A stretch of 35,367 nucleotides of DNA from a bacterium TMED88 (GTDB lineage Bacteria > Myxococcota_A > UBA9160 > UBA4427): positions 1-35,367 of the forward strand of contig NHEP01000011.1 of the NCBI GenBank assembly GCA_002171515.1. Reading direction: 5' to 3'. The position numbers and the translations under genes are program-made. The stretch's first letter is position 1. Every line of letters begins with the position of its first letter. Positions 21,019-24,346 of this stretch are shown one piece after another. The notes beneath the pieces were generated by a model. The model ran no database searches. It had not been told where the DNA came from and was given only the letters and a program-made list of their open reading frames with translations.

Positions 21019-21606
21019 TCACGAGGCGGGCCCCCTGGCCTCGGGGCTCGACCCGCCGGCCGAGGGAGGGACGTCCGGTTTTTGGTAGGCCCGGGCCAGC
21101 AAGTAGCGTTCGCTGCTGCCCTTACGGGTAGCCTTCGCTTTGACGGTCTTCACTTGCTCAAAAGCCTCTCGCATCCGTTGCTGAAAAGCCTGCGCTTCCG
21201 GGCACTCCAAAAGCTTCAGCAGCAGTGCCCCATCCTGCTGAATTAATTGAGGAATCATATACTCCACGGCGTCGAGCAGGCGCTCCTCCGCCGCGCGATC
21301 GGTTTCCCGTACGCCGGTGAGCTTGGGCGCGGCGTCGGAGAGCAGAACATGGCAGCGGCCGCCCAAGGCTTTGAGAATGCGTTCGCAAATATCGGCGTCT
21401 TCAAGGTCGCCCTTCAATGCGAACACGTTCTCAATTTCGAGGGGCGGCTCAATGGCGACTCGATCGACTCCGACAACGCGGCCGCCGGGGCCCACCGCCC
21501 GGGCGGCTTCCTGAAGCCAACCCCCCGGCCAGCAGCCGAGGTCAATCACCCTCTGCCCCCGAGCCAGCACCCGATGCTGCCCCTGCAACTCGGCGAGCTT
21601 GTACAC
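21019..21606 (-). CDS. rlmE: RlmE/FtsJ-family 23S rRNA 2'-O-methyltransferase, start uncertain
   Basis: From the GTG at 21606 it reads 195 residues of a RrmJ-type enzyme, which methylates U2552 of 23S rRNA. SAM motif I is [11 protein letters not shown], and the catalytic K-D-K-E set appears as Lys in VYKL at the very start, Asp in [11 protein letters not shown], Lys in LLLKLLE and Glu in SSERYLLA. The reading frame continues upstream through codons for ARYDRKDHFHQRAKREGF and RSRA, which is the conserved N-terminus of this family, until the TAG stop of rplC at 21682-21684. In those 25 codons there is no ATG, GTG, TTG or CTG. The family N-terminus would fit a start at the GTC at 21675, so the true start is non-standard, mutated or misread. 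The C-terminal tail is a Pro/Ser-rich extension. Confidence 0.82.
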
Positions 21607-21681
21607 CGCACGCGATCGAAAACCCTCGCGTTTCGCGCGCTGGTGGAAATGGTCCTTGCGGTCGTAGCGGGCGACGGCGAA

Positions 21682-22332
21682 CTACTTCGTCTTGGGGGCG
21701 ATGGCCGCGCGAACGCGCACCAAGCCGTTGTTGTGACCCGGTACCGCGCCGCGGAGAAAAATTAGGTTTTTGTCCGCGTCCACGCGAACCACTTCCAGGT
21801 TTTGAACCGTGACTCGGGCATCACCCATCTGGCCAGCATGCTTCTGGCCTTTCCAGACCTTCGCCGGGTAAGCGCCCGCGCCAATCGAGCCGGGGTGGCG
21901 GAAGTATTCGTGCGTACCATGCGTTCGCTTTTTGATCGCAAAGCCGTGGCGCTTGACCACGCCCTGAAAACCGCGCCCCTTGGAGGTCCCCACCGCGTCC
22001 ACGCGCTGCCCATCTTCAAAGATGTCGGCCTTCAGAATCTGCCCAACCTCGAATTCCCCCGCCTCCTCCTCGGAAATGCGACTTTCCGCTAGGTGCCGAA
22101 GGGGGTCAATGCCGGACTTCGCGAAATGACCGGATTCAGGTTTGTTGAAGAGTTTGGCGCGGCGTTCACCAAAACCGAGCTGAACGGCGGCATAGCCATC
22201 TTTTTCTTCGCTCTTCTTGATTCGAACGACGGTATTCGGGCCGGCTTCAAGAACCGTCACCGGAATGGCTTCGCCAGTTTCACTATAAATTTGGGTCATG
22301 CCGAGCTTGCGGCACATCAACTCGATGGACAT
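21682..22332 (-). CDS. rplC: 50S ribosomal protein L3
   Basis: 216 residues, full-length bacterial L3, which binds 23S rRNA near the peptidyl-transferase centre and helps start assembly of the large subunit. Conserved parts are the opening CRKLGMTQIY, the loop SKGRGFQGVVKRHGF, then HPGSIGAG, and KGQKHAGQMGDARVTVQNLEVVRVD, including the Gln that is methylated in some species. The ATG at 22332 has GGGAG about 8 bases upstream; ten earlier codons are open but unlike L3. It is alone here: no rpsJ, rplD or rplW, so it is outside an S10 operon. Downstream in the same frame is rlmE. It may be the only copy or a second one; this window cannot tell. Confidence 0.95.
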   Translation of the reverse strand: MSIELMCRKLGMTQIYSETGEAIPVTVLEAGPNTVVRIKKSEEKDGYAAVQLGFGERRAKLFNKPESGHFAKSGIDPLRHLAESRISEEEAGEFEVGQILKADIFEDGQRVDAVGTSKGRGFQGVVKRHGFAIKKRTHGTHEYFRHPGSIGAGAYPAKVWKGQKHAGQMGDARVTVQNLEVVRVDADKNLIFLRGAVPGHNNGLVRVRAAIAPKTK

Positions 22333-22615: not shown

Positions 22616-24346
22616 ATGTCGAGCCGCCTCCAATTTGCTGCGCCGGACCCTGCGTCCGGGGCCTCAGACGCGGGAGAGCCGACCCGCGAGGGCCATCCTC
22701 GGGGGTCGATCCAACCGCTCCTGGTGCTGGCCCTCGATGGAGCCACCTTCGACGTGATTCAGCCCATGCTGGACGAAGGATTGCTCCCCCACCTCGGCCG
22801 GTGGATGGGGGAAGGCCAATGGGGCCCGCTCCGCTCCACCACCCCACCCGTGACTTTTCCCGCATGGACGACTTTCATGACCGGCCTCGAGCCCGGTGAG
22901 CACGGAATTTTTGATTTCACTCATCGGGTGCCTCAGCGGTATCGAATTCAATTCGTCAACGCCTCAGATAGGACCGGCGAGACACTTTTCGAAGGTCTTG
23001 CTCAAGAGGGGGGCCGAATGCTGGTGCTGGGGATGCCCGCCACGCACCCTGTGGAACCCCTACCGGGCCTCTTCGTCCCGGGTTTCGATGCCCCGGTCTC
23101 GACGGGGAGCGAGGCCTCGGCGACCAGTGACCCCGCACTCTATGAACGCGTTGCCGAACGGGTCGGCCCTTGGATGCGACCCGATGTCAACGAATCCGCG
23201 GGAGACGCCGCGTCTGCGGAACGGGCCGTCGAAACGCTTTTGGGTCGCATCGAACGGAAAAAGAATTTCACCCTGGAAGCCCTCAACGCCATGGCGTCTC
23301 AGCCCGAGGGAAAACCAGAACTCGTCATGGTCGTCTTTGCGGAGAGCGATACGGTGGGACATCACTACTGGAGAGACCACGATCCCCAGAGCCCGCGTCA
23401 CGATCCCGCGGCCTCGAGCACCAGAAAGCAGGCGATCCGATCGGTCTATTCCGCGCTCGACCGGGCCTGCGGTGAAATCCGCGAGGCCTTCGGAAGCGAA
23501 AGACCCTGCTTGGTGGTGTCCGATCACGGAATGGGGGGAGCGGCCAAAGAGATCGTCCACCTCAATCGCTATCTGGCCGAGGGCGGGTGGTTGACGCGAC
23601 GTGCGGCCCAAGCCGCCCCTTTCGACACCCTCGCCCGAAGGCTGCGAGACACGGCTCTGCGCTGGCTGCCGCCCACTCTGGCCCAGCGCCTCTTCCGCCA
23701 AGCGCGCCGCGCCGCGGCCCGCCTTGAGAGTGCGGCTCGCTTCGGAGGGCTCGACTGGACACGCACCCAAGCCTTCTCAGAAGAGGCCAACACTCTGCCC
23801 GGTGTTTGGATCAATCTAAGAGGGCGGGAACCCGCCGGCTGCGTCGCACCCTCCGACTATGAGAAAGTGCGGGATCAGATCATCGATCATCTTCAGTCCT
23901 GGAAACGGCCCGACGGTGGACCCGTGGTCGCCCGCGCGCTGAGGCGCGAAGAGGTCTACTCCGGCCCCTTTGTGGAACGCGCGCCCGACATTCTCATCGA
24001 GCTCGCCCTCTCGGACGGCTATGGACTTTCCCTCGTGCCAACCCCTTGGGCGGGACCCACAGAATCCTGCCGAACCCTGGAGCCACAGGACTACGCGGGG
24101 GGGCGGGGTCGGGGAATGAATGGAACCCATCGGCGAGACGGCATTTTCATCGCCTCCCAGATGGGTTCGCTGGCCGAGACCCGCCCACCTACTCGCCTGG
24201 CGGAGGTCGCCGCCTGGATGGCCGACAGCCTCGGACTGAGCTGGCGCCCCACAACCACCCCAGGTTCGAGCCCACGTCGGGACTACACTGAAGAGGAAGA
24301 CGCCATCGTGGCCGCTCGGCTGAGGGCCTTGGGGTACCTCGAGTGA
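22616..24346 (+). CDS. Alkaline-phosphatase-superfamily phosphodiesterase/nucleotide pyrophosphatase-like protein
   Basis: 576 residues. It has the metal-binding pattern of the type I phosphodiesterase/nucleotide pyrophosphatase family: Asp in LALDGATFD, a Thr nucleophile in TPPVTFPAWTTFMTG, Asp and His in FAESDTVGHHYW, Asp-His in VVSDHGMGG, and a late His in MNGTHRRDGIF. Such enzymes cleave phosphodiester or pyrophosphate bonds of nucleotides, lipids or glycans; the substrate is unknown. No signal peptide is visible, and the first 30 residues are a low-complexity tail. A distinct insertion (about residues 330-400) is Arg- and Ala-rich. The gene overlaps the GT2 gene by 4 bases (GTGA), tying it to the surface-glycan set. 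The ATG at 22616 follows AGAGAGA with long spacing. Confidence 0.82.
   Translation: MSSRLQFAAPDPASGASDAGEPTREGHPRGSIQPLLVLALDGATFDVIQPMLDEGLLPHLGRWMGEGQWGPLRSTTPPVTFPAWTTFMTGLEPGEHGIFDFTHRVPQRYRIQFVNASDRTGETLFEGLAQEGGRMLVLGMPATHPVEPLPGLFVPGFDAPVSTGSEASATSDPALYERVAERVGPWMRPDVNESAGDAASAERAVETLLGRIERKKNFTLEALNAMASQPEGKPELVMVVFAESDTVGHHYWRDHDPQSPRHDPAASSTRKQAIRSVYSALDRACGEIREAFGSERPCLVVSDHGMGGAAKEIVHLNRYLAEGGWLTRRAAQAAPFDTLARRLRDTALRWLPPTLAQRLFRQARRAAARLESAARFGGLDWTRTQAFSEEANTLPGVWINLRGREPAGCVAPSDYEKVRDQIIDHLQSWKRPDGGPVVARALRREEVYSGPFVERAPDILIELALSDGYGLSLVPTPWAGPTESCRTLEPQDYAGGRGRGMNGTHRRDGIFIASQMGSLAETRPPTRLAEVAAWMADSLGLSWRPTTTPGSSPRRDYTEEEDAIVAARLRALGYLE

Follow-up and report, generated by a model that had tools for sequence, protein, structure and literature searches.

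Where does translation of rlmE begin when the reading frame offers no usable start codon ahead of the conserved N-terminus of its product? The question is raised by two adjacent minus-strand genes in the window, the whole stretch of 35,367 nucleotides that was analyzed. The upstream gene, rplC (21682 to 22332), encodes ribosomal protein L3, starts with ATG at 22332, and specifies 216 amino acids that match TIGR03625 (L3_bact) with 269.7 bits, above the cut-off; it is the single L3 match in the genome. Its end reads AAG ACG AAG TAG, with the stop at 21682 to 21684. Past this TAG, the rplC frame contains no further stop until the methyltransferase ends at 21019, and 25 sense codons (21681 to 21607) separate the TAG from the GTG at 21604 to 21606, the earliest conventional start in the rlmE frame. 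These codons (TTC GCC GTC GCC CGC TAC GAC CGC AAG GAC CAT TTC CAC CAG CGC GCG AAA CGC GAG GGT TTT CGA TCG CGT GCG) translate to FAVARYDRKDHFHQRAKREGFRSRA and include no ATG, GTG, TTG, CTG, ATT, ATC, or ATA, and no in-frame rlmE start further upstream is possible in this genome. The original prediction that a conserved RlmE N-terminus (ARYDRKDHFHQRAKREGFRSRA, 21607 to 21672) lies between the L3 stop and the first usable start, where standard ORF calling overlooks it, was thus borne out. It had described the frame as running into an annotated enzyme, but the data carry no annotation, and GTG 21606 is merely the start chosen by a mechanical ORF caller. The pair stands alone, outside any S10-type operon (rplC at 21682 to 22332 of the window), and is divergent from a plus-strand phosphodiesterase/sulfatase-like gene at 22616; rplD was looked for in this 81%-complete MAG and was not found.

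From its inferred start to its stop (21019 to 21675, minus strand), rlmE encodes an FtsJ/RrmJ-type 23S rRNA 2'-O-methyltransferase, in which the FtsJ domain is found at 130 bits against a cut-off of 24.1 (PF01728, 1e-37). The best NCBIfam matches are RlmE models, TIGR00438 (156.8 bits) and NF008390 (116.2 bits), both under the equivalog cut-offs of 300.15 and 269 bits, and the scores therefore do not establish the U2552 specificity of RlmE. The K, D, K, and E residues of the product align with those of human MRM2 (7o9k), as does the N-terminal segment with the N-terminal part of MRM2, beginning at query residue 9. We take K-D-K-E to be the catalytic tetrad of RrmJ. The E. coli enzyme RlmE (RrmJ/FtsJ; 23S rRNA Um2552 methyltransferase) belongs to the same fold family as the protein described here, and the two agree in their aligned catalytic residues and in the N-terminal motif. 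The E. coli gene begins with ATG, is one of the heat-shock genes, and adjoins ftsH; it does not lie behind rplC.

The simplest reading of the frame is that translation starts at GTG 21606, its earliest conventional start codon, and that the 25 codons upstream, including the ARYDRKDHFHQR part, are untranslated. Comparison with relatives makes this highly improbable. Between this genome (G000) and its sister species and congener G001, codons 2 to 25 counted from the GTC at 21673 to 21675 comprise 17 identical codons, 7 synonymous differences, and no replacement; the comparison with G017 gives 14 identical, 10 synonymous, and again 0 replacements. The six codons that precede the GTC show no comparable constraint across the family. 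This pattern indicates strong amino acid constraint, as is expected of translated sequence, on codons 2 to 25. Further, GTG 21606 is not the ancestral start, because the same codon is GTC, GCC, ACC, or GTT in each of the other 18 family members compared. Initiation there would also remove the conserved KDHF..AK..E.[FY]RSRA segment, which can be aligned with human MRM2. GTG 21606 was rejected as the rlmE start on both grounds, the unconserved codon and the constrained N-terminus.

The position at which homologs begin was assigned by reference to the conserved Tyr of the Y-x-R-K-D motif. Relatives in which rlmE is not coupled to rplC carry ATG, GTG, or TTG three codons (sometimes 1 to 4) before this Tyr, and G000 has GTC there (21673 to 21675), 6 nt past the TAG, as originally predicted for the family start position. 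The intervening spacer (TTC GCC, 21676 to 21681) varies in length and frame among relatives. Within the family, coupled members have GTC, GTT, ATT, or GCG at this codon: GTC in G000, G001, genera g2, g11, and g12, and G021; GTT in genera g3, g5, g6, and g9; and ATT in G015. The GCG of G007 (L016), barely near-cognate and 4 nt past the rplC TAG, is the least certain of these assignments; the infC of the same genome gave a partial match only. Genus g10 of this family lacks rplC as a neighbor of rlmE, and there the start is ATG in all nine genomes. Other families of the order show ACG, ATT, CTG, ATC, or GTC at or adjoining the start position, and in the sister order f12 (L150 to L154 and L214 to L219), rlmE lies behind rplC with an ACG start in 10 of 11 genomes. 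The ACG of f12 is a second conserved non-canonical rlmE start, with a different codon.

A GTC lies one base away from a normal GTG start, and the possibility of a single-base change or of a sequencing or assembly error had been raised for this site. The relatives refute it, and we give an error practically no chance: the same codon is GTC or GTT in other species and genera whose metagenome genomes were assembled independently. Neither GTG nor ATG, which the original prediction had proposed to look for in close relatives, was found at this codon there. The first option it had offered for the GTC, a rare non-standard start, gained support, since GTC, GTT, or ATT is kept at the codon across the genera of the family. 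No NTG start precedes the conserved N-terminus, and the odd codon is either kept or swapped for other weak starts.

The start codon follows the distance from the rplC stop, a class-wide link that formed no part of the original prediction. We compared 86 genomes of the class, all of them assemblies and mostly metagenomic, and called rlmE coupled when the spacing between the rplC stop and its start is -8 to +10 nt, the range used in PMC10666635; the 6-nt spacing of G000 falls inside it, and 4 to 9 nt is usual in coupled genomes. Two spacings included in the count were set by hand: that of G025, whose rplC is truncated at the end of the contig (7 nt), and that of G043, which has a CTGA overlap and was assigned CTG as its start. 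An ATG, GTG, or TTG start was present in none of the 36 coupled genomes and in 43 of the 50 others (Fisher 3e-17, with genomes that are not independent); counted by genus, the canonical start was found in 0/25 coupled versus 21/28 otherwise. A kinship-aware test, with pairs taken on a maximum likelihood RlmE tree of 85 rows, yielded six informative independent pairs, all of which agreed with the prediction and none of which ran in reverse (sign test, median p 0.031). Twenty-five of the 36 coupled genomes lack ATG, GTG, and TTG anywhere upstream in the open rlmE frame, and a few (G017, G012, G007, and G080) have an upstream in-frame GTG within rplC. The seven uncoupled genomes with weak codons, among them GTT at 35 to 38 nt (G003 and G014), ACG at 13 to 23 nt (f12), ATC (G036), and CTG (G074), mean that proximity to rplC is not the whole story. 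These genomes, with spacings of 13 to 38 nt, may represent recent changes of spacing, or distance may not be the sole factor.

In the stretch analyzed, rlmE is in frame with rplC, as it also is in G001, G006, and G021, and rplC favors TAG. Both facts would suit read-through of the UAG (or a programmed frameshift or bypass in relatives) that yields an L3-RlmE fusion and needs no separate start, an option that the original prediction had included. We consider such a fusion very unlikely, because read-through or frameshifting would require a fixed frame, yet the frames vary: the 36 coupled genomes place rlmE in each of the three possible frames with respect to rplC (15, 12, and 9), and relatives with the same GTC or GTT codon sit in the +1 or +2 frame with spacers of 4 to 8 nt. 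A downstream frame in conserved phase with the rplC stop was not found, and the residues encoded by the spacer are unconserved. The rplC stop is TAG in 30 of the 35 coupled relatives with a mapped stop, but TAG is the commonest stop of uncoupled rplC too (26/38), and a role for it as a special coupling stop was rejected on this ground. Coupled or not, rplC ends with TAG in 56 of 73 genomes, and the stop of rlmE itself is mostly TGA. The very tight coupling with L3 translation that had been proposed for this locus is supported as far as position is concerned (6 nt).

If GUC is read as a start, the decoding machinery appears to be ordinary. A tRNA-Met(CAT) with the initiator stem GGGCTCATAACCC is present in G000, G001, and most other family genomes. 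Decoding of GUC by a dedicated initiator tRNA, such as one of the Val type with anticodon GAC, is extremely improbable; two GGGCTGACAACCC matches occur in G000, but ARAGORN does not accept these GAC-anticodon look-alikes as tRNA genes, the normal initiator tRNA(CAT) is present in the same genome, and the ACG, ATT, and CTG starts of sister lineages would demand additional tRNAs. A search for an altered initiator by GGGCTNNNAACCC scans and ARAGORN in these incomplete MAGs returned ordinary Met-CAT genes only. Nearly all family genomes start infC with ATT, ATC, or ATA behind a Shine-Dalgarno (SD) sequence, as E. coli and Streptomyces do, and the classic autoregulation of IF3 seems to be conserved in this lineage. 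The retention of this AUU-type start suggests that start codon discrimination by IF3 is probably intact. The SD sequences of the family infC loci (L229 to L257) are of the GAGGA type, and the infC start of G009 is possibly CTG. In the same genomes, rpmI and rplT have ATG behind an SD sequence and rplC has ATG or GTG, so that the odd start sets rlmE apart from the genes that served as controls (rplC, rpmI, and rplT). The SD sequence before rlmE is weak, at -2.2 kcal/mol in G000 and with a median of -3.8 in coupled genomes versus -6.9 for rplC. RNA structure at the rplC-rlmE junction, compared with shuffles, showed none beyond expectation (z of -0.8 and -0.5).

Collectively, we regard it as probable that the GUC is a genuine near-cognate start, used by re-initiation after L3, and that strong starts are selected against at this position in order to hold RlmE low. 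On this model, rlmE would be translated from the GUC at 21675 to 21673, decoded by the ordinary initiator fMet-tRNA(CAU), as ribosomes that have terminated L3 synthesis at the UAG, 6 nt before the GUC, re-initiate with low efficiency (termination-reinitiation). Every ribosome that translates L3 would pass the GUC, and a strong start would therefore produce a catalytic enzyme at the level of a ribosomal protein. The weak near-cognate codon (GUC, GUU, or AUU; ACG or CUG in sister lineages) could then be selected as a throttle on re-initiation, and it should render RlmE output sensitive to IF3. The initiation at GUC, its dependence on rplC translation, the low output, and the action of IF3 are inferred from the comparisons given here. 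By analogy with sigR of Streptomyces, the weak start probably keeps RlmE scarce relative to L3, of which each ribosome requires one copy, whereas the enzyme is needed in catalytic amounts only.

The selective part of this model can be set against drift, whereby the weak re-initiated start is real but is no selected damper: tight coupling would relax selection on the codon, and near-cognates would wander in. Start codon identity is indeed unstable, with 37 changes across the tree of 85 rows, and the GCG of G007 is what relaxed selection might leave behind. Drift should, however, reach GTG often, which accounts for 41% of the Val codons in the rlmE and rplC genes compared (GTC, 40%; GTT, 14%; GTA, 5%), and ATG, GTG, and TTG are absent from every coupled genome. 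Among the 15 conserved Val columns of the two genes, the start column alone lacks GTG and GTA, and the other 14 all contain GTG. This avoidance of GTG suggests that a weak start is selected rather than simply tolerated, and drift by itself appears unlikely. Selection for a weak, re-initiated GUC start accordingly remains our preferred reading.

Non-canonical starts and re-initiation are each already known, and the closest precedent for a GUC start is sigR of Streptomyces, which begins with GTC in 32 of 34 species and GTT in 2 of 34 and is repressed by IF3 (Feeney et al. 2017, PMC5472188). When its GTC is replaced by ATG, expression increases about fourfold, which upsets the balance between sigR and its partner (PMC5472188). 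This precedent indicates that GUC starts function in vivo. Like rlmE, sigR has a clade-conserved GTC start (GTT in a minority) that ORF callers do not see, and a protein level that is low relative to the product of the neighboring gene, as is probably also the case for rlmE. In contrast, sigR precedes its partner gene and is served by a strong SD sequence (AGGAGGTG), whereas rlmE is the downstream gene, SD-poor in G000, and lies 6 nt past the stop of a ribosomal-protein gene; the sigR start is experimentally proven, that of rlmE is predicted from sequence, and phylum and function differ. The infC gene (AUU/AUC), present in the same genomes, is like rlmE a translation-related gene with a non-canonical near-cognate start, and this start is sensitive to IF3. 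It differs by its strong SD sequence and self-regulation; rlmE does not encode IF3 and appears to depend on its neighbor instead. In E. coli, AUU reportedly has about 0.3% of the efficiency of AUG, a value that PMC10666635 quotes from Hecht 2017. GUC initiation should be weaker than this, and enough RlmE must then arise from very little initiation.

The spacing of rplC and rlmE lies in the range of known termination-reinitiation pairs (PMC10666635; PMC2268962; PMC12548453), and re-initiation in E. coli drops steeply with distance, as tested at 1, 4, 7, and 40 nt (PMC2268962; also PMC10666635). Ordinary pairs of this kind have NTG starts and mostly -4 or -1 overlaps; in rplC-rlmE, by contrast, spacings of +4 to +9 nt and GUC, GUU, or ACG starts are the rule. 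A clade-wide GUC, GUU, ACG, or CUG start on a ribosome modification gene, tied to the proximity of a ribosomal-protein stop, was not found in the literature searched. A broader proposition, which we advance tentatively and hold to be less probable than its negation, is that re-initiating ribosomes obey looser codon rules than those initiating de novo and that evolution exploits this difference. A gene that follows a heavily translated ribosomal-protein gene at 4 to 9 nt could thereby receive a start (GUC, GUU, ACG, or even GCG) that would be rejected de novo, and it would be translated solely by ribosomes that had finished L3, at a low rate that IF3 could tune; such a class-wide rule would tie a 50S maturation enzyme to L3 synthesis.

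Start codons other than ATG, GTG, and TTG are on record for very few bacterial genes, and gene finders assume that there are none. The rlmE gene, which is present in single copy and encodes an enzyme that modifies the ribosome, apparently uses GUC, GUU, AUU, ACG, or CUG in dozens of species of a large group of uncultured, Myxococcota-like bacteria, with a choice that tracks the distance from the L3 stop. These lineages offer natural replicates for the question of whether re-initiation is as stringent toward start codons as de novo initiation, and they bear as well on whether start codon strength serves to set stoichiometry within coupled gene pairs. Annotations across the whole class probably give rlmE in truncated form or with a wrong start. 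Three lineages, represented by G039 (L123), G073 (L148), and G043 (L122), display a further arrangement, a -4 overlap in which the sequence CTGA holds both the end of rplC and CTG as a weak start of rlmE.
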